Shown: positions 12,108 to 25,801 of the stretch, in pieces
Numbering within the stretch: the first letter of the stretch is position 1
Layout of the letters: every line of letters starts with the position of its first letter
NCBI GenBank assembly: GCA_003282965.1
Contig: QBYF01000002.1
Location: forward strand, 58,015-122,014
DNA from: Pelagibacteraceae bacterium AG-325-E13
Lineage (GTDB): Bacteria; Pseudomonadota; Alphaproteobacteria; Pelagibacterales; Pelagibacteraceae
Direction of reading: 5' to 3'
Length of the DNA stretch: 64,000 nt
Translations under genes and position numbers: made by a program
Notes under the pieces: generated by a model
What the model was told of the DNA's origin: nothing
What the model saw: the letters and a program-made list of their open reading frames with translations, nothing else
The model's database searches: none

Positions 12108-13438
12108 TAGCAGAATTTATTAATCCAGCTACACTAGGCTTTATTTTAATTGCAGTAATGTTATTTGCAATTTTTATTGGTTTTCCAATTTCATTCACTT
12201 TAATTTTTTTAGGATTTGTATTTGGTTATTTAGGTTTTGGTAAGCTTGTTTTTTATTTAATGACCTTACAGTTTTCTATGGTCATGACTGAGCAAGCACT
12301 GGCGGCAGTCCCACTGTTCGTCTTTATGGGTATTATGATGGAAAATGCAGGTTTAATGGAAAGATTATTTTCATCTGTTCAATTAATGTTATCTAGAGTT
12401 CGAGGGGCTTTATTCTATGCAGTGCTCTTCGTTTCAGTAATATTTGCAGCTGCAACAGGTATAGTAGGTGCATCAGTTACTATTCTTGGAATTATGGCTG
12501 CAAAATCAATGAACAAATCTGGTTATGACGTAAGATTGGCAGCAGGAACAATTACAGCAGGTGGAACTTTAGGGATATTAATTCCACCAAGCATCATGTT
12601 AGTTGTCATGGGTCCAATTATGGAAATACCAGTAACAGATTTATTTGCTGCTGCAATAATACCTGGAATAATGTTGGCTCTTTTATATGCTGCGTACGTA
12701 ACTATAAGGTGCGCTTTAAATCCAAAATTAGGTCCTGTTCTTCCGGTAGAAGACAGAGCAACAAGCATGGTAGAAGTCTTTAAAGAGTTTCTAATTGGAC
12801 TATTGCCCCCAGCACTTTTGGTTTTTGCAGCTCTTGGAAGTATTTTATTTGGATACGCAACACCCACAGAAGCTGCAGGATGTGGCGCTGTAGGCTCTTT
12901 GCTTTTAGCATTAGCTTATAGAAAATTAACGCTACCAAAATTACAAGAAGCTTTAGTCAAAACTTTAGAGATATCAGCTTTAATCATGGTGCTTGTAGCA
13001 GCTTCAAACTTCTTTGGATCGGTGTTTTCAAGACTGGGAACTCCAATGGTTTTAACTGAATTTTTATTACAGCTTGAAATGAACAGATATATTATTTTAG
13101 GAATTGTTCTTGCAATGATTTTTCTTTTAGGTTGGCCCTTAGAATGGGTTCCTATAGTATTAATCATAATTCCTATCATCTTACCTTTAATAGAGGAGTT
13201 AGGTTTTAATTTAACTTGGTTTGCTATTTTGGTTGCTGTTAATTTACAAACCGCCTGGCTGTCTCCGCCTGTGGCACTTTCAGCCTATTTCTTAAAAGGA
13301 GTAGTTCCAGAATGGGATTTAAAAGATATTTATGTAGGTATGATGCAATTTATGGTATTGCAAGTTATAGGATTAATATTAATAGTTATTTTTCCACAAA
13401 TAGCATTGTGGTTACCAACGGTACTTTATGGCAATTAA
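12104..13438 (+). CDS. TRAP transporter large permease, DctM type
   Basis: A 444-residue protein with roughly a dozen membrane segments, the ion-coupled translocation subunit of the TRAP system. Family blocks visible include AVPLFVFMGIMMENAGL, GTLGILIPPSIMLVV and the C-terminal NLQTAWLSPPVALSAYFLKG. The two inverted halves expected for DctM are present, so it is full length. It overlaps the downstream HpsN-like gene by 11 bases, tying transport and the first oxidation step together. Confidence 0.93.
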   Translation: MIAEFINPATLGFILIAVMLFAIFIGFPISFTLIFLGFVFGYLGFGKLVFYLMTLQFSMVMTEQALAAVPLFVFMGIMMENAGLMERLFSSVQLMLSRVRGALFYAVLFVSVIFAAATGIVGASVTILGIMAAKSMNKSGYDVRLAAGTITAGGTLGILIPPSIMLVVMGPIMEIPVTDLFAAAIIPGIMLALLYAAYVTIRCALNPKLGPVLPVEDRATSMVEVFKEFLIGLLPPALLVFAALGSILFGYATPTEAAGCGAVGSLLLALAYRKLTLPKLQEALVKTLEISALIMVLVAASNFFGSVFSRLGTPMVLTEFLLQLEMNRYIILGIVLAMIFLLGWPLEWVPIVLIIIPIILPLIEELGFNLTWFAILVAVNLQTAWLSPPVALSAYFLKGVVPEWDLKDIYVGMMQFMVLQVIGLILIVIFPQIALWLPTVLYGN

Positions 13439-14714
13439 ATATATAAAAAAAGCAGCTAAAACTCCAGAGACGGACGATCATAAAACACAGGCAGCTGTTC
13501 AGGATATTCTTAATGACATTGCAAAAAGAAAAGAAATTGCGCTTAAAGAACTAAATAAAAAATTTGATAAGTATGATGGGGAAGTAATTGTTTCAAAAGA
13601 GAAGGTAGAAGAAGCGATCAAGAAAGTTGATCAAAAAACTAAAGATGATGTAAAATTCGCACACGAAAGAATTAAAAAATTTGCTGAACACCAATTAAAA
13701 AGTATGAACAACGGGTTTGAAGTTGAACTATCGAAAGGATTGTTTGCAGGACAAAGATTAATTCCAGTAGATACAGCAGGATGTTATATTCCGGGGGGAA
13801 GATATGCGCATATTTCTTCTGCAGTAATGGCCATAACTCCTGCCAAAGTAGCCGGTGTAAAAACTATTATCTGCGCCAGTCCTCCCAAAGATAAAGATGG
13901 TGCCAACCCTGGAATAATTTTTGCTGCCAATCATTGTGGAGCAGATGTAATAATGAACTTAGGTGGAGTAGCTGCCATAGGTTCAATGACACATGGATGT
14001 TTTAAAAACCCCCCAGTAGATTTTTTAGTTGGAGCAGGGAATCAATATGTAGCTGAAGCTAAAAGAATTGTTTATGGAAAGGTTGGAATAGATCAATTTG
14101 CAGGACCAACAGAAATTGCCATTATTGCTGATAAGTCTGCGGATAAAGAAATTGTTGCAGTAGATTTAGTAGGTCAGTTAGAACATGGATATAATTCTCC
14201 AGGATGGTTATTTACAACAGACAAATCATTGGCAGATTTTACAATGAAAAGAGTTCCAGAATTAATTAACGAACTACCTGAATTAGCAAAAGTAAATGCA
14301 ACAGCGGCATGGAAAGATTATGGTGAAGTAATTCTATGCGATACTAATGAGGAAATGGCAGAAGTTAGTGATAAGTATGCCTCTGAACACTTAGAAGTCC
14401 ATGCAGAAAATTTAGATTGGTGGCTAGAAAGATTAAGAAATTATGGATCTTTATTTTTAGGAGAAGAAACAACAGTTGCTTATGGTGATAAATGTTCAGG
14501 AACAAATCACATTCTTCCAACAAAAGGTGGTGGAAGATATACGGGCGGCTTGTTTGTAGGAAAATTTATCAAAACTTTAACTTTTCAAAGAATGACAAAA
14601 GAAGCCACTGAAGTTGTTGGGGCAACAGCTGCAAGATTGGGAAGAGCTGAGGGTATGGAAGCTCATGCTAGAACCGCAGATGTTAGATTAAGAAAATACG
14701 GCTTTTCGAATTAA
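13428..14714 (+). CDS. hpsN: Histidinol-dehydrogenase-family sulfopropanediol 3-dehydrogenase (HpsN-like)
   Basis: A 428-residue member of the HisD family. The shared core is clear: VDTAGCYIPGGRYAHISSAVM near residue 110, the FAGPTEIAI block, SEHLEV with the catalytic Glu-His pair, and SGTNHILPT. At the histidine-biosynthesis position it reads GQLEHGYNSPGW rather than the QAEHD of true HisD. No other his genes are nearby. In characterised bacteria HpsN oxidises DHPS to (R)-sulfolactate with NAD. Here it directly follows a TRAP transporter and lies within 10 kb of suyAB, which would use the product. True histidinol dehydrogenase is the unlikely alternative. Confidence 0.86.
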   Translation: MAIKYIKKAAKTPETDDHKTQAAVQDILNDIAKRKEIALKELNKKFDKYDGEVIVSKEKVEEAIKKVDQKTKDDVKFAHERIKKFAEHQLKSMNNGFEVELSKGLFAGQRLIPVDTAGCYIPGGRYAHISSAVMAITPAKVAGVKTIICASPPKDKDGANPGIIFAANHCGADVIMNLGGVAAIGSMTHGCFKNPPVDFLVGAGNQYVAEAKRIVYGKVGIDQFAGPTEIAIIADKSADKEIVAVDLVGQLEHGYNSPGWLFTTDKSLADFTMKRVPELINELPELAKVNATAAWKDYGEVILCDTNEEMAEVSDKYASEHLEVHAENLDWWLERLRNYGSLFLGEETTVAYGDKCSGTNHILPTKGGGRYTGGLFVGKFIKTLTFQRMTKEATEVVGATAARLGRAEGMEAHARTADVRLRKYGFSN

Positions 14715-15718
14715 TGCAAGCACTAGTTTATACTGGTACTAACAAAATAGATTTCAGAGAAGAAAAAGATCCAATTGCAAAATCAGGTGAGACTTTAGTA
14801 AAAGTAAAAGCTTCAGGTATCTGTGGCTCAGATATGCATGCCTTCCATGGCAATGATGAAAGAAGAGTACCACCGTTAATATTAGGTCATGAGGTAAGCG
14901 GAACTAGTTTAGACGGTAAATTTAAAAATAAAGATGTAGTTATAAATCCTTTAATTAGTTGCGAGAAATGTGATTATTGTAAAAATGAAAGAGAACATTT
15001 ATGTCCCAAAAGAACAATGATAGGGATGAGTACACCAATAAAAAGGGAAGGTGGATTGGCAGAACTAGTATCTGTACCAGAAAAAAATATTTTTGAAGTT
15101 CCAAAAAAACTAAGCATTAAAGAAGCAGCTTTAGCTGAACCGGCTGCTGTAGCATTACATGCGGTTTTATTAGCTGAGCAAAATTTAAAAAAACCTCTGT
15201 CAGAGTGTAAGATTTTAATCCAAGGAGCTGGGGCTATAGGTTTATTATGTGGTTTAGTTTTAAATAAAGAAAAAAAATCTACAGATATAATTATGTCAGA
15301 TCCAAATAAAAAGAGATTAGATGAGTGTGCTAAATATCTAAAAGCAAATTTTGTATCTCCAAATGATAAATCAATTAAAGAAAATAACTTTGACTTAATT
15401 TTAGAGTCTGTCGGTTTAGAGGTTACACGTCATCAAGCAATAAAATCAATCGCACCAGGTGGCACAATCTTACATATAGGTTTAACACAACCTTCAGGGA
15501 CTTTTGATTTTAAAAAACTAACAATTCAAGAAATTACTCTAGTGGGAACTTATTGTTATACGAATAAAGATTTTCAAAAGACACTAGAAATTCTAACAGA
15601 AAAGAAACTAGGTGATCTAGGATGGATTGAATATAGAGATCTTAAAAAGGGTTCTGAAGCATTTAATGAGATTCATAATGGTACTTGCGTAGCTCCAAAG
15701 ATAATTCTTATACCTTAA
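14714..15718 (+). CDS. Zinc-dependent alcohol dehydrogenase (MDR), possible HpsO/HpsP-type enzyme
   Basis: A 334-residue medium-chain dehydrogenase. Catalytic zinc ligands are visible in GICGSDMHAFHG and GHEVSG. Structural zinc Cys residues lie in CEKCDYCKNEREHLC, and the Rossmann motif in GAGAIGLLCG. It starts on the last base of the HpsN-like stop codon (TAATG), so it is the fifth gene of the TRAP operon. In DHPS degraders two extra dehydrogenases, HpsO and HpsP, interconvert DHPS enantiomers; this is a good candidate for one of them. Threonine or sorbitol dehydrogenase-like activity cannot be excluded from sequence. It shares a 4-base TTAA stop overlap with the convergent GT17 gene. Confidence 0.87.
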   Translation: MQALVYTGTNKIDFREEKDPIAKSGETLVKVKASGICGSDMHAFHGNDERRVPPLILGHEVSGTSLDGKFKNKDVVINPLISCEKCDYCKNEREHLCPKRTMIGMSTPIKREGGLAELVSVPEKNIFEVPKKLSIKEAALAEPAAVALHAVLLAEQNLKKPLSECKILIQGAGAIGLLCGLVLNKEKKSTDIIMSDPNKKRLDECAKYLKANFVSPNDKSIKENNFDLILESVGLEVTRHQAIKSIAPGGTILHIGLTQPSGTFDFKKLTIQEITLVGTYCYTNKDFQKTLEILTEKKLGDLGWIEYRDLKKGSEAFNEIHNGTCVAPKIILIP

Positions 15719-16593
15719 TTATCTATCCACTCTTTATAATTATTCTTATTATCAACTACGTATTTAGGTAAAAGATTTAAATCATATTTCTTTAATTTAT
15801 AGTCACTTTTCCATTTACTCGTTGAACTTTGATCTGCAAAGTGATCATAAAACATTTCTTTATTTTTAATTTTTTCTCTTATTTTTTCTACTGTTAAACC
15901 ACTTAGTCTAAATTCATCGTGATGACCAAAATTCATAAATTTTTCATACATTTCTTCAGCTGTTTTTAAATTTGTAAAATGCCAACCACCATCTTCAATT
16001 ATATCTAAGTTGATCTGTTTTGTTTCAGAAAAAAGAGTATCTAATCTCCAAAAAGGATACTTTTTTAACTTTATATTTCTAAGCCAAGATAATGATTTTA
16101 ATTTCTTTTTCTTACAAGCTTTGGTTCCAATCCAAAACATTCTGTCGTAAAGTAAATTAAATTTAAAATAAAAAAAAAGTTGTTTGAATAGAATAATGTC
16201 TTTTTGACATTTATTAAACTGGTCCGAACTCAAGTTTGGAATTTCATCATTGTCGCTTAACATAATTAAATCCTCATCTGAAAAATCTTTAAGAGCTTTT
16301 AAGCTTTCATCATAGGAAAGACCTATTCTTTTAAGGCTATTAGATCTTTGCAAGAATGGATCGTTGTTTTCATCAACTATTCCCTCTGGTTCTCGATCAA
16401 TAACAATATAGATAATTTTGTCTTTAAACTTTGAGTAATTACTTATATCAAAATTTAATTTTTTCTTTTTACCGCTGTGAGAGTAAGTGGATTCTGTAAC
16501 AATAAATTTGTCAACTTTATCTTTTAAGACGTTTAATCTTACCTCGTACATCATATGTTCTGAGTAAAAAGATGTGCAATCAACAATTTTCAC
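15715..16593 (-). CDS. Glycosyltransferase family 17 protein
   Basis: A 292-residue GT17-like enzyme (the beta-1,4-N-acetylglucosaminyltransferase III family). The hallmark start KIVDCTSFYSEHMMYEVRLNVL, the VTESTYSHSGKKKKL segment and the acidic LSDNDEIPNL motif are present, and GGWHFTNL lies in the second half. No membrane segment or signal is seen, so it is cytoplasmic. A paralog lies at 22.0-22.9 kb with the same motifs in the same order. Acceptor and donor are unknown; bacterial GT17 proteins usually sit in surface-glycan loci, so its place between sulfonate genes is unusual. Confidence 0.87.
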   Translation of the reverse strand: MKIVDCTSFYSEHMMYEVRLNVLKDKVDKFIVTESTYSHSGKKKKLNFDISNYSKFKDKIIYIVIDREPEGIVDENNDPFLQRSNSLKRIGLSYDESLKALKDFSDEDLIMLSDNDEIPNLSSDQFNKCQKDIILFKQLFFYFKFNLLYDRMFWIGTKACKKKKLKSLSWLRNIKLKKYPFWRLDTLFSETKQINLDIIEDGGWHFTNLKTAEEMYEKFMNFGHHDEFRLSGLTVEKIREKIKNKEMFYDHFADQSSTSKWKSDYKLKKYDLNLLPKYVVDNKNNYKEWIDN

Positions 16594-16705
16594 TAATCAT
16601 TAACCTCTGAGTTGTAGACATTATGCATACCTGAAATAAAATTTTAACATAGCTAATATAAAATTATTTTTAATAAACTACTAGAAAATTCGGAAAGGAA
16701 AACAC

Positions 16706-17086
16706 GTGAAAAAACTTTTTATTATATTAATTTTAACTGCTTTTTCTTCCGCTTATGCTGGCGGACATATAACTAAAAAACAAAAAGTAGAAACTATACA
16801 ATGTCTTGGACATTATAGTGCAACGGCTGTTTTGCCTGCTGATACTATCGAAGTTACAGATATGGAAATGGCTTTAGCTTCAGTTAAAGTAATAAGATCT
16901 TTTCTACAAAAAGAACAAGTTAGTGACGATGAGATGAACAAAGGTATGAATGAGCATGTAGATAAAGTTTATGGAAAACCATTTGATAAAGGTATGAATG
17001 ATAAATGTAATAAATTTATCTATAAACTAATCCCTGGTTCAAAAGAAGAAATAGAAAAATTATCTAGAACTATTTATGGAGGATAA
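16706..17086 (+). CDS. Small secreted two-cysteine protein, copy 1
   Basis: A 126-residue protein with a Sec signal peptide (LFIILILTAFSSAYAGG). The mature part is helical-looking and has two conserved Cys, in IQCLGHYSA and DKCNKFIYKLIPG, able to form a disulfide. The start is GTG, supported by a GGAAAGGAA ribosome binding site at normal distance and by alignment with its neighbour, which starts ATG-AAA-AAA. It is the first of five co-directional small genes. I do not recognise the family. It and the next gene are clear tandem duplicates. Confidence 0.78.
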   Translation: MKKLFIILILTAFSSAYAGGHITKKQKVETIQCLGHYSATAVLPADTIEVTDMEMALASVKVIRSFLQKEQVSDDEMNKGMNEHVDKVYGKPFDKGMNDKCNKFIYKLIPGSKEEIEKLSRTIYGG

Positions 17087-17089
17087 TTT

Positions 17090-17467
17090 ATGAAAAAATT
17101 TTTTATAATACTATTTTTAACAGCGTTTTCCTCAGCTTACGCTGGAGGGCATTTAAGTGAAAAAGACAAAAAAGCTACTCTAAAATGTACAGGACTATAT
17201 TATGCTAACAGCATGATACCTCAGGGTACTTTAGAACTTGATAAGATCGTTTATTCTATTTCGGCAAAGAAATTTTTAACATCATATTTAATAAAAGAGG
17301 GAGTAAAAGAAGATTTTATTAATACAGAACTTAATAAATCTATCGATGAACTTTATGGAAAAGCATATGATGAAAAAAAAACTGGTGAATGTGATAAATA
17401 TATTTACAAATTAATACCAGAAGCTAAAGCGGAAATTGATAAACTGGTGAAATCTGGAATTTATTAA
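17090..17467 (+). CDS. Small secreted two-cysteine protein, copy 2
   Basis: A 125-residue paralog of the preceding gene. The signal peptide is nearly identical (FFIILFLTAFSSAYAGGH), both Cys are in the same places (LKCTGLYYA; GECDKYIYKLIPEAK), and a shared DELYGKAYD / DKVYGKPFD block lies near residue 95. It begins three bases after the stop of copy 1. Outside these blocks the copies have diverged, so this is not a recent duplication. Function is unknown; the periplasm is the likely location. Confidence 0.78.
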   Translation: MKKFFIILFLTAFSSAYAGGHLSEKDKKATLKCTGLYYANSMIPQGTLELDKIVYSISAKKFLTSYLIKEGVKEDFINTELNKSIDELYGKAYDEKKTGECDKYIYKLIPEAKAEIDKLVKSGIY

Positions 17468-17484
17468 ACTAACAGGAGCAAAAC

Positions 17485-17775
17485 ATGATAGTAAAAATAG
17501 AAAGTCCAATTGCAACTTTTGCAAAGTGGAAAGCGATGGTTCACAGCAATTCAGAAAAGATTAAAAAATACGGTATGACATTTCTTTATGCTGGAACTGA
17601 AAAGGATAATGACTCAAAAATTACTACCATTATAAGATTTGATACAATGGATGGTCTTAAAGCTTTTAAGGCTGATGAGGAACTTCATAAAGAAAGAGCA
17701 GCAGCTGGAGTAGTCTTAGAGAAATCCGTTACAACTCTAATGGGTGAAGATCTGTTAGAACAATATAAAGGATAA
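17485..17775 (+). CDS. Small cytoplasmic protein, dimeric alpha/beta-barrel-like
   Basis: A 96-residue protein with no signal or membrane segment. The order of a beta strand (MIVKIES), a helix with a Trp (FAKWKAMVH), a strand, TTIIRFDTMDGLKAF and a second helix is reminiscent of ferredoxin-like monooxygenase/ABM-type dimeric barrels. I cannot confirm the family. It has a good ACAGGAG ribosome binding site and is third in the five-gene operon. No catalytic residues can be assigned. Confidence 0.72.
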   Translation: MIVKIESPIATFAKWKAMVHSNSEKIKKYGMTFLYAGTEKDNDSKITTIIRFDTMDGLKAFKADEELHKERAAAGVVLEKSVTTLMGEDLLEQYKG

Positions 17776-17789
17776 TTAAAAGGATAAAT

Positions 17790-18206
17790 ATGATAGATAA
17801 ATTTGGAAACGCATTTTATTTAATAATCTACTTTGCTCATTTTATAATAGTTGGCAGCTATGCTTATCAGTTAGTCTTTGATACTAAAAAATTTCTTAAA
17901 GGTAGAGGAGTAGATAAGACAGCTACTTTAATCACTAGATTCGCTGGTTCATTTATGGTTGCAATAGTTTTAATGGCGATCTATGTAGCCTTCGTAAGAC
18001 CGGGTGGTTTAGATGCTACTTGGGCATTCTTTAATTTAGTTTTTATAATTAATGCTTCAATATTAGCTGCAAATTTTTATACGTTAAAAATTGATAAGAC
18101 AGGTTTAACTAAAAAAACAAAAAACGATGGAATATATGCACCACTAATTTTAGTAATTATGAGTGCTTTACTTTGTTATGGTCTTGCAGATAAAATCTAC
18201 GTTTAA
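17790..18206 (+). CDS. Four-helix integral membrane protein of unknown function
   Basis: A 138-residue protein with four hydrophobic segments near residues 8-28, 50-68, 78-96 and 115-133. A basic loop (DTKKFLKGRGVDK) separates helices 1 and 2. A His (YFAHFIIVG) and a few acidic residues are the only polar groups in the helices. It resembles small DoxX-like membrane proteins in size but lacks a motif I can name. It is fourth in the small-gene operon, after an AAAAGGAT ribosome binding site. Confidence 0.72.
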   Translation: MIDKFGNAFYLIIYFAHFIIVGSYAYQLVFDTKKFLKGRGVDKTATLITRFAGSFMVAIVLMAIYVAFVRPGGLDATWAFFNLVFIINASILAANFYTLKIDKTGLTKKTKNDGIYAPLILVIMSALLCYGLADKIYV

Positions 18207-18227
18207 AAATCAGAAAGGAGGGAGAAA

Positions 18228-18551
18228 ATGGCAAAATTTATAACTCTAGGAAAGTATACAGCCAAAGGTCTTGGAGGATTTGTTAGCAATCCATCTACAG
18301 ATAGGAAAGCAGCAACTTCTGCACTAGCTGCATCTGTTGGCGCTAAGGTTACTAGATACGCTGGCTTAAGAGGCAAGTATGACTTTATGGCTGAGATTGA
18401 AGGCACGTTTGAACAAGCCGCAGCTGCTTCTATGGTAGCTACATCAAGCGGAGCAATATCTGATTTTACTATTTTAGAAGACATAGACCTTAATGAAGTA
18501 GCAAAGACTGCTCAAAAAATGGCTAGTAATTACAAGGAACCAGGAAAATAA
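18228..18551 (+). CDS. GYD-domain protein
   Basis: A 107-residue soluble protein that fits the GYD domain (a ferredoxin-like fold of unknown function). The start KFITLGKYTAKGL, the GLRGKYDFMAEIEG block holding the family Gly-x-Tyr-Asp core (here GKYD), and the closing FTILED strand are visible. An unusually strong AAAGGAGGGAG ribosome binding site suggests high translation. It is the last gene of the small operon. A 7-bp inverted repeat (CAGGAAA / TTTCCTG) overlaps its stop, without a T tract. Confidence 0.76.
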   Translation: MAKFITLGKYTAKGLGGFVSNPSTDRKAATSALAASVGAKVTRYAGLRGKYDFMAEIEGTFEQAAAASMVATSSGAISDFTILEDIDLNEVAKTAQKMASNYKEPGK

Positions 18552-18633
18552 TTATTTCCTGAAACTTATACATTTCAAGGTATCGGTAAATTTTATTTGA
18601 TTAGGAAAGTTTAATTTAATTTCATCGATACCT

Positions 18634-19263
18634 TCATCTATTTCTTTTTTTGAAAGACTTAATAAGCATGAAATATATCTTACTTTTATCATTGATATAT
18701 ACTTTTTTCTTAGAAATATTTACTTTAAAACTAAAACTAGTTTCTCTTGTCTTTTTTAAATTTTTTTTAATAACATTAAATAAAATTTCATCAACTTTTA
18801 AGCTTTTATGTAAATTTTTTTTCATCTTATTAAAACAGGGTATTTTATTATTTTTTGTTTTAAGAGAAAAAATTAATATTTTTCCTTTAGATTTTAAATT
18901 TTTCTTTGAAAGATTTAACAAAATATTCAATTTTTTCTTTGAGAAAAAATGGATTGTTTGTTTTATTAAGATTAAATCATATTTTTGTTTATTTTTTTTT
19001 AAATAGTTTATTGCATCAAATTTTTTAAATATAATATTTTTCTTAATATCCTTACTTTTGATAATATCTACTCCAGCAGGTTTTGTTTTAAATTTAAATT
19101 CATTTTGAAGTGCACTTATAATATTTGCTCGTCCACAGCCAATATCAAGAATTTTAGAATTTTTATTAAAATTTACCTTTAATTTTAAAAATTTATTGAA
19201 ATTTGTAAGATATTTTTTTGAAGAAAGCCAAGTCTTGTTATCCCAATTTTTAAGTTTTTGCAT
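18634..19263 (-). CDS. Class I SAM-dependent methyltransferase
   Basis: A 209-residue methyltransferase with the SAM-binding motif I ILDIGCGRANI near residue 40, an acidic strand (GVDIIKSKD) and a motif IV-like YDLILIKQTIHF. It is extremely Lys/Asn-rich and more AT-rich than the neighbouring metabolic genes. The acceptor substrate cannot be inferred. Its start overlaps the stop of the upstream pta-type gene by one base, so it is co-transcribed with it. Confidence 0.8.
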   Translation of the reverse strand: MQKLKNWDNKTWLSSKKYLTNFNKFLKLKVNFNKNSKILDIGCGRANIISALQNEFKFKTKPAGVDIIKSKDIKKNIIFKKFDAINYLKKNKQKYDLILIKQTIHFFSKKKLNILLNLSKKNLKSKGKILIFSLKTKNNKIPCFNKMKKNLHKSLKVDEILFNVIKKNLKKTRETSFSFKVNISKKKVYINDKSKIYFMLIKSFKKRNR

Positions 19264-20171
19264 TAAAGGGCAACAACTGCTGCAGCCATTGATGCTAATC
19301 TTGCTTCGGTATTATCGGCCCTACTAGTTATAACAACAGGCACTTTTCCTCCCACAACTACTCCAGCTGCACAAGCACCCATAAAAAAAATCATCATTTT
19401 AACTAGACCATTTCCTGCCTCTACATTTGGCACTAGTAGAATATCAGTTTGTCCAGCTACAGCATTTTTAATACCTTTTATTTTTGCTGCTTTTTCAGAA
19501 ACTGAATTATCAAATGCCATTGGACCAAAAACATCTGCTTCAATTCCCTCATCTTTTACTCTTTTAGTCAATTCTTTTGCCTCAATAGAGCTTGGTACAC
19601 TCTTTAAAACTTCTTCAGTAGCAGACAAGATAGATACTTTTGGTTTTGAAATTCCAATACGTTTTGCAAAATCAACTGAATTTTTGAGTATATGCATTTT
19701 AGTTTCTAATTTAGGCAAAACATTCAAAGCGCCATCAGTTATTATAAATGGTTTATCATTTCTTTCTAAAGTCATGTGCCAGATATGACTTAATCTTTTT
19801 TTGCCAATCAAGTTTAAGTTTCTTTTAAGCACTGCTTTCATTAATACATCTGTATGAATGTGACCTTTGACAATTATCTTAACCTTATCTTCACTTGCTA
19901 ATTTTGCTGCTATTGGGGCCGTATTGTTTTCAACTGGCTCATGTATAATTTCATAATTTGAAATATCCCAATTTATTTCTTTTGCTATTTTCACTATGGT
20001 TGTTTTATCTCCAACAAAAACTGGTATTATTAAATTAGCTTCAACTGCTTGTTTAGCAGATACTATCGCAACCTCTTTAACAGCATTTACAATTACTGCT
20101 TTTACAGGTCCTTTTTGTTTTGCAATTTTCAATAGGTTTTCTGGACAAATAATTTTTTTTTTAGATAGCAT
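19263..20171 (-). CDS. pta: Phosphate acetyl/butyryltransferase
   Basis: A 302-residue single-domain member of the PTA/PTB family, which interconverts acetyl phosphate and acetyl-CoA. Visible features are AVIVNAVKEVAIVSAKQA near the start, IVKGHIHTDVLMKAVL in the centre, and the C-terminal GKVPVVITSRADNTEARLAS signature. Xsc produces acetyl phosphate, and this is the obvious route from it to acetyl-CoA. It overlaps the Ldh-family gene by 11 bases. Butyryl specificity, or activity with other acyl phosphates, is possible; the sulfonate context favours acetyl. Confidence 0.86.
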   Translation of the reverse strand: MLSKKKIICPENLLKIAKQKGPVKAVIVNAVKEVAIVSAKQAVEANLIIPVFVGDKTTIVKIAKEINWDISNYEIIHEPVENNTAPIAAKLASEDKVKIIVKGHIHTDVLMKAVLKRNLNLIGKKRLSHIWHMTLERNDKPFIITDGALNVLPKLETKMHILKNSVDFAKRIGISKPKVSILSATEEVLKSVPSSIEAKELTKRVKDEGIEADVFGPMAFDNSVSEKAAKIKGIKNAVAGQTDILLVPNVEAGNGLVKMMIFFMGACAAGVVVGGKVPVVITSRADNTEARLASMAAAVVAL

Positions 20172-21168
20172 CTAATTCACTCATTTCTTTTAAAATTTTC
20201 TCAGGTATAGATATATCTTTATTTAAATTCATTTTATATGTTTTATTTTTTCTTTCTCCTGGATATAAAATTGAATTAAAACCTTTTGCTTTTGGAAGTT
20301 TTTTTACTCGTTTAATATTTTTTTTTATTTCTTTAATAAAGTTATTTCCTACAAAAATTTTAGGATTAATAGTTATAAATAAATGACCAACATTTTGAGG
20401 GCCAGTAAAATCATCAAAAGGATCTTTTGTCTTTCCACCATGACTGCTACCAGTTAATACACCACTTAAAATATCTACCATCCAGGCCAAACCTGATCCT
20501 TTAAATTCTGCTATAGGAAGTTGGGTTCCTAATAAAGCTTCCTTAGCATTAGTTGTAATTTTACCAGCTTTGTTTAATGCTACGCCATAAGGAATCCTTT
20601 TTCCAAGTTTATTAGCTCTTCTTATTTTTCCTCTATTAATTACTGAAGTTGAAGCATCTAATATAAACGGCACTTTACCTGTAGGTGTTCCGAAACAAAT
20701 TGGATTAGTCCCAAATAAAGATTTCTTTGCACCATGAGGGGCTAGAGCAGGAGGAGCGTTTGTAAAACAAAAAACAATTAAATTTTTTTTTACGGCTTGT
20801 TCAGCATAAAAACTGGATAATCCGAAGTGACCACTTTTCTTAATAGCAACTAAACCAATTCCTGTTTTTTGTGCATTTTTAATTGCTTGGTCAATTCCAA
20901 TATCAGCTGACACAAAACCAATACTATTATCTGCGTTTATATGGGAAATTGAAGAACTTATTTTTTTTATTTTTATTTTTGGTTTTGGATTAATCAATCT
21001 TTTTTTAATTCGATCACAGTACATTTTTAGTCTAATTAGACCATGAGACTTCGCATCAACAAGTTCTGCTTTAATTAAGTAATTCGTACATATTTCTGAA
21101 TGTTTGTGTGATAATCCATGCTTTCTAAAAATTTTTTTTACTTTAGTTTTTAATAAATTTTTTTTCAC
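20161..21168 (-). CDS. Ldh/malate dehydrogenase-type oxidoreductase, candidate sulfolactate dehydrogenase (ComC-like)
   Basis: A 335-residue NAD(P)-dependent 2-hydroxyacid dehydrogenase of the Ldh_2 family. Motifs include DAKSHGLIRLKMYCDRI near residue 37, KKSGHFGLSSFYAEQA with the catalytic His, and GSGLAWMVDILSGVLTG near residue 225. ComC, the (R)-sulfolactate dehydrogenase, belongs to this family. Next to pta and in the same island as suyAB and hpsN, sulfolactate is a plausible substrate, for isomer interconversion or reversible oxidation to sulfopyruvate. Ureidoglycolate or malate/lactate activity remains possible. Confidence 0.82.
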   Translation of the reverse strand: MKKNLLKTKVKKIFRKHGLSHKHSEICTNYLIKAELVDAKSHGLIRLKMYCDRIKKRLINPKPKIKIKKISSSISHINADNSIGFVSADIGIDQAIKNAQKTGIGLVAIKKSGHFGLSSFYAEQAVKKNLIVFCFTNAPPALAPHGAKKSLFGTNPICFGTPTGKVPFILDASTSVINRGKIRRANKLGKRIPYGVALNKAGKITTNAKEALLGTQLPIAEFKGSGLAWMVDILSGVLTGSSHGGKTKDPFDDFTGPQNVGHLFITINPKIFVGNNFIKEIKKNIKRVKKLPKAKGFNSILYPGERKNKTYKMNLNKDISIPEKILKEMSELDAI

Positions 21169-21599
21169 TTTATCTTTTTGTTTCCTTCTTTTTCCCAGTA
21201 ATCAATTCTTTGTTTTTGATTTTCAACCAGGTTTCTACACAAAAGACCGTATTCTTTAGCTAAAAGGGCAAAGTTTCTTTTCGCTTTTTTTGTAAATTTA
21301 TCTACTTTTTCTTTATTTATTTTTGCCATAGACTCAGGTTTGAAACCTAAGACTTCTCCTAAATCATAATTAAACTTTAAAGTAACGTCAGCACTTTTTT
21401 CTAACCCTTCTATAATATTTTTTTCTTTCCCAATCTTTTTAAAACTTTCTGCACTCACCTTATAAAAACTATAGCAGCTAACGTAATCCTTCTGAATATT
21501 TTCAATTACATATTTTGCTACTTTTTCTTCTTTTGTTTTTTCAAGGGAGTTTAAGGAAAAGGGATATAACAATATAATTATGTAGATAATTTTTTTCAT
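21165..21599 (-). CDS. Small secreted protein of unknown function
   Basis: A 144-residue protein with a short signal sequence (IIYIIILLYPFSLNSLE) and a Lys-rich, largely helical mature part. Two Cys (VSCYSFYKV; GLLCRNLVE) could pair. The general plan of signal peptide, about 120 helical residues and one Cys near each end resembles the tandem pair at 16.7-17.5 kb, but I see no convincing sequence identity. It overlaps the Ldh-family gene by four bases. Confidence 0.7.
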   Translation of the reverse strand: MKKIIYIIILLYPFSLNSLEKTKEEKVAKYVIENIQKDYVSCYSFYKVSAESFKKIGKEKNIIEGLEKSADVTLKFNYDLGEVLGFKPESMAKINKEKVDKFTKKAKRNFALLAKEYGLLCRNLVENQKQRIDYWEKEGNKKIK

Positions 21600-22033
21600 T
21601 AGCTTTCTTTTTTATAATTAATAACACTTTCACATTGTGACAACAAACTTTCACCCTCTGTATTGTTCAAAACGGTTCTTATTTTGACATTAGCCTTTTC
21701 TTTATCGAAAATTAATTGAGTATAAAAGGCAGGATAACCTGAGATTTCAGAAACGAACAAATTATTTTCTACAGTTATCCCTTTGTTTGTTAAGTTTTTT
21801 TTTTTAATTGTTATGTCATTAAGTCTTAACTTCTCATAGCTTTCGTCACTATATATAAATTCCCTAGTCATAAGTCCTTTTTCTAAATCAAGAATATACT
21901 CATTTTTTTCATAAACATAATCAGTACTTTTGCAATTTTGAAAAATAAATATTTCTGCTATTGAATGTGTTGATAGCAATTGAAAGACTAGAAAAAAAAA
22001 AATTATCTTCATTCTTATGATTTTGTTAATCAA
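21599..22033 (-). CDS. Small secreted protein of unknown function
   Basis: A 144-residue protein whose N terminus MINKIIRMKIIFFFLVFQLLSTHSIAE is a signal peptide. A start at the second Met (MKIIFFF) would give a more typical signal. The mature part looks beta-rich with two Cys (QNCKSTDYV; SQCESVINY), like a small periplasmic or lipocalin-type domain; no family is recognised. It is packed between the GT17 gene and another secreted protein with 1-8 base overlaps. Confidence 0.68.
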   Translation of the reverse strand: MINKIIRMKIIFFFLVFQLLSTHSIAEIFIFQNCKSTDYVYEKNEYILDLEKGLMTREFIYSDESYEKLRLNDITIKKKNLTNKGITVENNLFVSEISGYPAFYTQLIFDKEKANVKIRTVLNNTEGESLLSQCESVINYKKES

Positions 22034-22919
22034 TCCATTCGGAAAACTGATCTTTATTTTTTGATATATAATCAGGTAAATATTTTAAGTCTAATTTTTC
22101 TAGCGTCTCAAATTTTTTTTCTTTATATCCTTTATAAACATCCTTGGTATCAGAGAAGTAATCATAAAGAATCTTTTTTTCAGCAATTTTTTTTTTGATA
22201 TCGTCTACTTTAATACCACTATATTCGTATTCTAAATAATGTTCAAAATTTCTCATTTTATGATCAATTTGTTCCGCACTTTTAATATTTGTAAAATGCC
22301 ATCCACCGTTTTCAATGAATTGAACATCAAAGTATTTTGTTTTAGAGAATAAAGCATCAATTCTCCAAAAAGGATATTTTTTAGATTTAATATTTCGTAG
22401 CCATTGAGGGCTAGGCAGGTATTTTTTTTTACAAATTTTACTTCCCACCCAAACAACGCTAGGTGAAAGTAGATTAAATTTATAACAAAACATCTTTTGT
22501 TTAAAAATAGCAATCTTATTTTTATATTTAAATTTATCTAAATTTGGTATTTCATCTAAATCATTTATTAAAATTAAATCTTCATCTGAAAATTTTTCTA
22601 AATAATTGAGATGATAGTTTCTTTGAGAATTTTCTCTATAATGTGCATTATCCAAGATTTTAGAATGTTTGACATCTATATTATCATTTTCATTTATATT
22701 TTTTAAATTTTCAGGTTCTTTTTCTAAGACTATATAGGTAATTTTATCTTTAAATTTTTTAAAGTTTTTGATGTCGAAATTCAATTTTTTTTTTTCACCT
22801 CTATGTGTGAATGTAGCCTCGCATACGATAAATTGTGATACATGTTCGTTTAGTGTATTTAAACGAACATCTAATAACATATCTTCATCAAAATATTGTA
22901 AACAATCGATGATTTTCAT
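22026..22919 (-). CDS. Glycosyltransferase family 17 protein, second copy
   Basis: A 297-residue GT17-like enzyme and clear paralog of the gene at 15.7-16.6 kb. It shares the KIIDCLQYFDEDMLLDVRLNTL start, the ATFTHRGEKKKLNFDI block, the LINDLDEIPNL acidic motif, the WLRNIKSKKYPFWRIDALF segment and GGWHFTNI. It is cytoplasmic with no membrane segment. Its start overlaps the upstream racemase stop by four bases. Substrates are unknown; the pair probably modifies a surface glycan. Confidence 0.87.
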   Translation of the reverse strand: MKIIDCLQYFDEDMLLDVRLNTLNEHVSQFIVCEATFTHRGEKKKLNFDIKNFKKFKDKITYIVLEKEPENLKNINENDNIDVKHSKILDNAHYRENSQRNYHLNYLEKFSDEDLILINDLDEIPNLDKFKYKNKIAIFKQKMFCYKFNLLSPSVVWVGSKICKKKYLPSPQWLRNIKSKKYPFWRIDALFSKTKYFDVQFIENGGWHFTNIKSAEQIDHKMRNFEHYLEYEYSGIKVDDIKKKIAEKKILYDYFSDTKDVYKGYKEKKFETLEKLDLKYLPDYISKNKDQFSEWID

Positions 22920-23632: not shown

Positions 23633-25801
23633 TTAGAAAACTTTAAAAGCGTTAAATTTCAAAAAGTTTTGATGGCCAATACCATTTTTATCAATTCTAT
23701 TTATAGTACTTGATAAATTCCAACCATTATTGAAATTCCAATCAAAACCCGTTTCAGCAAGTATTGATGATGAAAAATCTTTCTTAATATTTGTAGTGTA
23801 TTGATTTGATGAACTAGTGACGTAATTAGCTTTTAAAGTAGAGTCATCAGTTAAGTCTTCATTGAAATCTAACTTAAGATAAGGCAAGAATTTTGAAGTT
23901 TTTAATCCAAAGTCTGCATGTATAATGGTTCCTAATGATAATGAAGTACTTTTTAAATCCCTATCATCATAACTTAACCTTAAATTACTATCTCCCTTTT
24001 CAGAGTAATCATCAAACATAGTATAGCTAAAGTTAAAACTTGAGTAATTACTAAAAGTGATTTTGTTGAGAGTTTTAGCAAAATTGTACTTTATTGCTCC
24101 AAACGCTTGTTGACTTTTTAACTCACCAGTAACCTTAGTATCATTTGCAACATCAACAACTCTTGTAGTTGATTGAGTTGTTTCACCAAAGCTTAAAAAA
24201 GTATCAAAAGCTCCTTTAAAGTTCTCATTATCAGAGAACCAAGTATTATAAAAAGAAACACTTAAGTTATCTGAATTGAATTTAGATCCATCAGTACTAA
24301 TCGTTACATCGTCAGTTTCATCTCTAATAGCAAATCCAAATAACGAATTATCTGTTAGATCAATGTCAGCACCCATAGTAAATCCATTTGACTCATTTCT
24401 TCTTCCTAATTGATTTACGTTAAAGTCAATACCGCCTGATGATATTAGGCCATTGCTCCAAACAGCCCATTTTTTTGGCTCAAGACCAAATCCATCTTTT
24501 AAATATCTAGTTAATGGAAGTTCACTTATAAAACTATCAATACTATCTTTTGAAATACCTTTGTTGTCTAATCCAATTTGAGAATATCTTTTTATATAAT
24601 GTTCTGTTAGTTTAGACTCTATACTTTGATCAGCGCCACTTTTAGCTAGCGCTAATTTTACATTATTTAAACTTAAGCTGCTATTTTCTCCAGTTCTTCT
24701 GAATTGTTCCATTCTTCCCATTATAGAATTAGTAGAATTAAACATCCACCTCTTTACACTTTCTGTTTGTGCCTCAACCATACCAGCCAACTGTTTATCA
24801 TCAAATGCTTGGTGTGTACTTCCACTTGCTTCAATTGAACTGATTGTGAGTGTCGTTAGTCCTGTAGTCGTTGCTGTCTCACCTTCAATACCGCCATATT
24901 CAATTACATAATATTGTACGTTCTGATTATTTCTATAATCATTCCAAGTTCCGTCTGTTTTTATATGCAACCTATCTTCACCTCCAGCATCGTTCGGTTC
25001 ATTAGTATTCCAACCAAATTCTCCAGCTCCAAATGGTTTTTCGTATACTGTGTAGCCAGTATCCACTGTGCAACCACCACTCGTTGTGTTATCAGCGTCG
25101 TTACCAACTGTAAAAATTTTTCCATCATCAGGACCACCCGACCATTTCCAACATCCTTCTGTATCAGCGTCAGTTCCGCCTAACCATGCATTCACTCCAG
25201 CTTTGTCATCTATAAAAGTATTTTCTTGATAACTTGTTATAGAAGCAAGATATCCTGATAGCCCGTTTAAAGTAGAAGCTTCCGCAGCAGTTTTTGCATC
25301 AGACCAAGTTATATTACTTCCATGATTTACGACTTTGTAATAATGCCCATTAGCTGAATTATAAAGACTTCCAGCTGGTGTTATGGATAATGTTACTGTA
25401 GGTGATCCTGTAGTTCCATCACCCTTAAATGATAAAGTAGCTATCGCTGCATTTATTTCAGCCTGCGTTCCTATAAATCCTATTTCTTCATGATCGCTAG
25501 CTTCTAATTTACAATTAGTTGGTTCACTAGAACTATCAGAGGTATAATCACAATACCCAGAAGCTTGTTCCAAACCTGTAGTAGTTGTAACAACGAGGGT
25601 TCCTGCCGAAGCAGTAATAGTTGCTAATAAATCAGTTGCAGTAAAACCACTTATGCTTGGAGTAGTTCCAGAGTCTGATAACAGCACAAAGCTAGACGTA
25701 TTCGCAGTCAAGGTGCTAGGCATTGTAATTGTTTCAGACCAAACTTTATTACTAAGTAATAAAGTCACACCGATAGCAGCTATCTTTATCCAAGCTCTCA
25801 T
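23633..25801 (-). CDS. C-type-lectin autotransporter (secreted adhesin-like protein)
   Basis: A 722-residue outer-membrane or surface protein. Order of parts: signal peptide (residues 1-22); a Ser/Thr-rich beta domain; a C-type lectin domain from about residue 150 to 305 with WSDAKTAAE, the Ca/sugar motif EPNDAGGED and the WND tripeptide; a helical linker (about 340-410); and a C-terminal autotransporter-like beta-barrel of about 280 residues ending in aromatic FKVF. EPN is the mannose-type specificity motif in animal lectins. The lectin part has several Cys for disulfides. It lies beside a GT17 gene and just downstream of tauC. Surface carbohydrate binding is inferred. Confidence 0.85.
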   Translation of the reverse strand: MRAWIKIAAIGVTLLLSNKVWSETITMPSTLTANTSSFVLLSDSGTTPSISGFTATDLLATITASAGTLVVTTTTGLEQASGYCDYTSDSSSEPTNCKLEASDHEEIGFIGTQAEINAAIATLSFKGDGTTGSPTVTLSITPAGSLYNSANGHYYKVVNHGSNITWSDAKTAAEASTLNGLSGYLASITSYQENTFIDDKAGVNAWLGGTDADTEGCWKWSGGPDDGKIFTVGNDADNTTSGGCTVDTGYTVYEKPFGAGEFGWNTNEPNDAGGEDRLHIKTDGTWNDYRNNQNVQYYVIEYGGIEGETATTTGLTTLTISSIEASGSTHQAFDDKQLAGMVEAQTESVKRWMFNSTNSIMGRMEQFRRTGENSSLSLNNVKLALAKSGADQSIESKLTEHYIKRYSQIGLDNKGISKDSIDSFISELPLTRYLKDGFGLEPKKWAVWSNGLISSGGIDFNVNQLGRRNESNGFTMGADIDLTDNSLFGFAIRDETDDVTISTDGSKFNSDNLSVSFYNTWFSDNENFKGAFDTFLSFGETTQSTTRVVDVANDTKVTGELKSQQAFGAIKYNFAKTLNKITFSNYSSFNFSYTMFDDYSEKGDSNLRLSYDDRDLKSTSLSLGTIIHADFGLKTSKFLPYLKLDFNEDLTDDSTLKANYVTSSSNQYTTNIKKDFSSSILAETGFDWNFNNGWNLSSTINRIDKNGIGHQNFLKFNAFKVF

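Follow-up and report, generated by a model that had tools for sequence, protein, structure and literature searches.

A modular cassette of small genes in Pelagibacteraceae, with its own promoter-like element and exchangeable barrel-type members

The locus

The window, by which we mean the whole stretch of 64,000 nucleotides that was analysed, comes from a member of the SAR11 family with a genome of 0.96 Mb, and its close relatives are named single-cell genomes of Pelagibacteraceae. The features of interest are a conserved element and five small genes downstream of it.

16611-16652, + strand: promoter/operator-like element GTTGTAGACAnnnTGCATACCTGnAATnnnnTTTTAACATAG, conserved, upstream of gene 1
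16706-17086, + strand: gene 1 (family c0), GTG start, 126 aa, secreted two-cysteine protein
17090-17467, + strand: gene 2 (family c0), 125 aa, secreted two-cysteine paralogue
17485-17775, + strand: gene 3 (family c20), 96 aa, small DUF3764/DUF1330-like protein of the dimeric alpha+beta barrel type
17790-18206, + strand: gene 4 (family c1), 138 aa, four-helix membrane protein
18228-18551, + strand: gene 5 (family c6), 107 aa, GYD-domain protein

An earlier note on this DNA, made from the sequence alone, described five small and tightly packed genes in one direction with ribosome binding sites, and that description stands: there are five + strand ORFs from 16706 to 18551, with intergenic spacings of 3, 17, 14 and 21 bases, and a purine-rich ribosome-binding site precedes each. 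The dN/dS values against relatives are 0.00-0.20 for all five genes, which indicates that every one of them is under purifying selection. The common direction, the short gaps and the one conserved upstream element lead us to predict a single operon. A terminator-like hairpin at 18540-18562 is on the - strand and was set aside. Rfam gave no match over positions 13000-22000 of the window, and there is thus no known riboswitch driving these genes.

The upstream element is kept in all 71 comparable loci of the same chromosomal site as well as in the window, with an identity of 90-100% in most of its columns against about 40-75% in most columns on either side. It occurs once in the host genome with up to three mismatches allowed. 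Among 61 genomes of the genus, many of them incomplete, there was exactly one match in 36 and none in 25, and a control with the pattern reversed gave no matches in the same 61 genomes. It includes a possible -35 at 16622-16627 and a possible -10 (TAACAT) at 16645-16650. A generic sigma-70 scan found sites to be no more numerous than in shuffled sequence, and the argument for a promoter is from conservation and not from that scan. The segments TTGTAGACA(A) and TTGCATACCTGCAA are almost palindromic and may mark a site for a regulator. In Pelagibacter there is a related element, TGCATA[ACT]CTG then CGCGCG, upstream of cassettes of the kind described below. It had six matches in 101 Pelagibacter genomes, one per genome, and all six are before a cassette. 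The cassettes that carry it start with another secreted protein or with a two-cysteine protein, and the regulation thus appears to be tied to the cassette and not to its first gene.

The encoded proteins

Genes 1 and 2 are indeed the secreted two-cysteine paralogues that they were taken for, as each product has a signal-peptide-like N-terminus and exactly two cysteines (C33 and C101), and the two are 45-47% identical. The GTG start of gene 1 is ATG in the aligned relatives. The model for gene 2 (mean pLDDT 87.6, pTM 0.78) is a five-helix bundle, in which C33 and C101 may form a disulfide. This model had no significant fold match among PDB structures (best E 1.5) or among the viral structures of BFVD (best E 0.43), and by sequence the family had only chance-level matches to PDB. 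The family was not found outside Pelagibacteraceae in a sample of 289 genomes of the class and 399 of the phylum. One Pelagibacter locus (L132, in genome G116) has a broken two-cysteine gene in its cassette, with the frame disrupted and an internal TAG, which indicates that single cassette members can be lost.

Gene 3 gives 23.7 bits (E 5.2e-5) with Pfam family DUF3764 (PF12594), just under the cut-off of 24, and for that reason we speak of resemblance and not of membership. A paralogue gives 20.3 bits with the same family, and gene 3 gives 18.3 bits with DUF1330 (PF07045), below the gathering cut-off of 23. The barrel-like protein of the earlier note resembles both families, but falls below the cut-off of each. 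Cassette member c8 passes the DUF1330 cut-off with 106 bits, and the DUF1330 cassette member has solved but uncharacterised relatives in 2fiu and 3lo3. Gene 3 and the exchangeable members c8 and c28 are all like the dimeric alpha+beta barrels of DUF3764, DUF1330 and ABM. No catalytic residue set could be named for the cassette proteins.

Gene 4 has four hydrophobic segments, in agreement with its description as a four-helix membrane protein, and has conserved Y24, R50, G53, G73 and W78 and a C-terminal DKIY. An AlphaFold model made from near-identical sequences only had a pLDDT of 58.5, and by sequence there were only chance-level matches to PDB. Assignment to DUF1361, SLAC1 or DUF485 was rejected, the Pfam matches being weak and inconsistent between members. 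Four loci (L144, L150, L151 and L160) have a c1 gene alone at another fixed place, beside glycosyltransferase-like and thioredoxin-fold genes, and in these genomes the cassette itself is without a c1 gene.

Gene 5 is a member of the GYD family (PF08734), with 40.9 bits against a cut-off of 31.4, so that its identification as a GYD-domain protein was correct; but here the GYD gene is fixed within a cassette of several families. Among the open-access papers covered, the only one to name a GYD domain lists such a protein as raised in stationary-phase Burkholderia (PMC12322963). Four Pelagibacter loci (L137, L138, L163 and L190) have a second GYD gene, which is about 5-7 kb away from the cassette and stands alone beside an aldehyde dehydrogenase.

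There are no hydrophobic segments in the products of genes 3 and 5, which with the signal-peptide-like N-termini of genes 1 and 2 and the four segments of gene 4 bears out the mixture of secreted or periplasmic, membrane and cytoplasmic proteins that had been proposed. The individual families of the cassette are already known, as domains of unknown function.

Order and content in related genomes

For comparison there are 80 named related loci, defined with gene 4 as the query, so that its presence in 80 of 80 is built in. Gene 4 was used for the scan of genome contigs because the full two-cysteine family profile was too variable. The other families present are two-cysteine (76 loci), GYD (74), ABM (69), DUF1330 (68), SCO4226-like (51), c7 (33) and the DUF3764-like gene of the window (13). 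The typical order is one or two two-cysteine genes, then barrels, then the membrane gene, and then ABM/GYD or SnoaL. The two-cysteine gene leads wherever it is present, except in one locus where a c24 barrel gene precedes it, and gaps estimated from the aligned ends have a median of 11 bases. The small barrel-type families that are exchanged are DUF1330, DUF3764-like, SCO4226-like, ABM and GYD, and the exact five-gene content of the host genome is in none of the 80 relatives. Conservation of gene order beyond this genome had been put forward as the check on a joint role, and it is the order of the frame that is kept across the 80 loci, though the contents vary.

A search of 117 genomes of the order gave matches to gene 5 in 83 of them, to gene 4 in 70, to gene 3 in 49 and to gene 2 in 35, and the matches were often adjacent. 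One searched genome, which we take to be HTCC1062, had no match to genes 2, 3 or 4. A genome of the host's genus (G034), 98% complete, had no match to genes 2, 3, 4 and 5, and the whole cassette seems to be absent from it, which indicates that the cassette is dispensable. Genome G013, which we take to be HTCC7211, does have a cassette.

In a comparison of 40 regions, with their proteins clustered into families, a larger modular cassette became apparent, of which the five genes are a reduced form. The usual site of the Pelagibacter cassette is behind cysE-cysK. The annotated parts other than barrels are DUF4440/SnoaL-type, cupin, DsbA-like, SMR exporters, DUF2798, cupredoxin, TPR and other secreted proteins. 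The 22 cysK-anchored loci all have an SMR exporter, and have DUF4440/SnoaL-type (21), two-cysteine (19), the membrane gene (16), DsbA-like (11) and cupin (7). Genes related to redox or electrophiles are neighbours in several loci (cysE, cysK, 1-Cys peroxiredoxin, MsrB, AhpD-like and azoreductase-like), and various loci have also a GloB/persulfide-dioxygenase-like hydrolase, a glyoxalase family gene or DsbD_TM. Neither the redox neighbours nor the SMR genes adjoin the cassette in the host genome.

We conclude with high confidence that the five genes are the local version of a modular Pelagibacteraceae cassette with its own promoter-like element. The suggestion that the five work together is accordingly kept for the unit, as shown by order, packing and the single promoter-like element, but not for a fixed set of five, as the barrel genes are exchangeable and the cassette is modular.

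The main alternative to a common function is that these are a loose set of unrelated small genes, united only by streamlining and a shared promoter. Streamlining is strong in these genomes, some of them have only one or two cassette members (L274 is an example), and gene 4 stands alone in a second SAR11 family and in five other Alphaproteobacteria. However the frame order persists through turnover of members, the cassette has its own conserved element, and several unrelated families come repeatedly from one structural class. We therefore regard a loose set as rather unlikely, while giving it more weight than any of the other alternatives.

Association with sulfonate genes

In the host the cassette sits inside a sulfonate block, in which Xsc and related families were confirmed. 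The upstream neighbours in the 80 loci are sulfonate TRAP/hisD-like/dehydrogenase genes in 44, TerC/enoyl-CoA hydratase in 27 and cysE-cysK in 9, so that in 36 of the 80 sulfonate genes are not beside the cassette. The TRAP-type and TerC-type loci share one chromosomal site and differ in whether the sulfonate block is there, and the 27 of TerC type have the c19 methyltransferase on the other side of the cassette. The gene 4 tree requires 14 changes in the type of neighbour; well-supported branches force 3-4 of these, and the cysEK type is one clade. These switches indicate that the sulfonate block comes and goes beside a stable cassette. The earlier placing of the genes within a sulfonate island is thus right for position, but the 36 loci speak against a functional unit.

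The genes could nonetheless be accessory to sulfonate (DHPS) catabolism, with a role in uptake or in sulfite or aldehyde handling for the TRAP/HpsN-like/Xsc/Pta/sulfolactate dehydrogenase neighbours. The cassette directly follows the TRAP, hisD-like and Zn-dehydrogenase genes in the host as in the 44 relatives, and there is a hisD-like gene within about 5 kb in several Pelagibacter genomes. This proposal is weakened by the 27 TerC-type relatives and the 9 behind cysK, by the neighbour switches, at least 3-4 of them on well-supported branches, and by a promoter element that is the same with and without sulfonate neighbours, and we think it improbable.

Proposed function

The content of the cassette and its neighbours lead us to favour, tentatively and at somewhat less than even probability, a module for protection against small molecules (electrophiles or oxidants). 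Members of the dimeric-barrel superfamily bind small hydrophobic molecules and often oxidise or rearrange them. In such a module the targets of the cytoplasmic barrels would be toxic electrophiles, oxidised organics or quinone-like compounds, which they would sequester or convert, and the membrane protein and the secreted disulfide helical protein, with SMR exporters in Pelagibacter, would handle the envelope side. The barrel set of each strain would then match its local chemical exposure. In streamlined genomes the neighbours on which part of this argument is based may reflect ancient synteny alone.

We prefer protection to the signalling module of the earlier note. In a module of that kind the secreted protein would sense, the membrane protein relay and the cytoplasmic barrels respond. 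The mixed cell locations, the conserved order and the dedicated promoter-like element are all compatible with envelope sensing, but no receptor, kinase, cyclase or DNA-binding domain is present in any cassette family, and the free exchange of barrels fits substrate diversity better than a fixed relay, so that we give signalling little probability. Least probable is an anti-phage or competition cassette with its variable content due to an arms race. The content is indeed hypervariable among closely related cells while the position is fixed, but there is no match in PADLOC or PHROGs, nuclease, toxin and NTPase domains are absent, a search of 50,697 phage records and of IMG/VR did not find the cassette, and the frame order is too stable.

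A more specific proposal is that this is a novel system in which a fixed secreted and membrane frame takes plug-in barrels under one dedicated regulator, and single-gene swaps tune small-molecule defence or use. We put this forward as speculative, with perhaps one chance in a few of being right. No description of the cassette was found in the literature, for which open-access papers were covered. Hypervariable regions of SAR11 are on record (PMC2217521, PMC5069961, PMC7318151). One of them, HVR3 of HTCC1062, is a variable island that contains small unknown genes and responds in part to sulfur limitation (PMC5069961, PMC2217521). However that region, SAR11_1162 onward with bhmT/osmC/ordL, differs from the cassette in its gene set. 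Replacement flexible genomic islands of marine bacteria also have changing content at the same position (PMC4033161), but the cassette differs in that its frame genes, order and promoter are fixed and it is one structural class of small genes that is swapped.

Among bacteria of the sea surface SAR11 are the most numerous, and although they have very few dispensable genes they keep the cassette, with its promoter-like element, and swap its barrels among close relatives. Once the ligands of the barrels are known, it should be possible to tell what chemical pressure sets SAR11 strains apart, and the widespread families GYD, DUF1330 and DUF3764 would gain a first function. The promoter element makes the question of the cassette testable with existing cultures and metatranscriptomes.

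Other genes near the cassette

The gene at 13428-14714 scores as histidinol dehydrogenase (hisD) in NCBIfam and adjoins the TRAP transporter and Zn-dehydrogenase genes. Because of this company it is probably a sulfopropanediol-type dehydrogenase, which automatic annotation would misname. On either side of the cassette region, within the sulfonate block, there are two related genes at 15715-16593 (- strand) and 22026-22919 (- strand). The one at 15715-16593 has a match to glycosyltransferase family 17 (5.6e-17), and only some of the relatives have it next to their cassette. At 23633-25801 (- strand) there is a gene for a secreted protein of 722 aa, whose N-terminal half is lectin-like and whose C-terminal half resembles a beta-barrel. 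This protein may be an autotransporter, and pieces homologous to it adjoin two Pelagibacter loci (L159 and L274).
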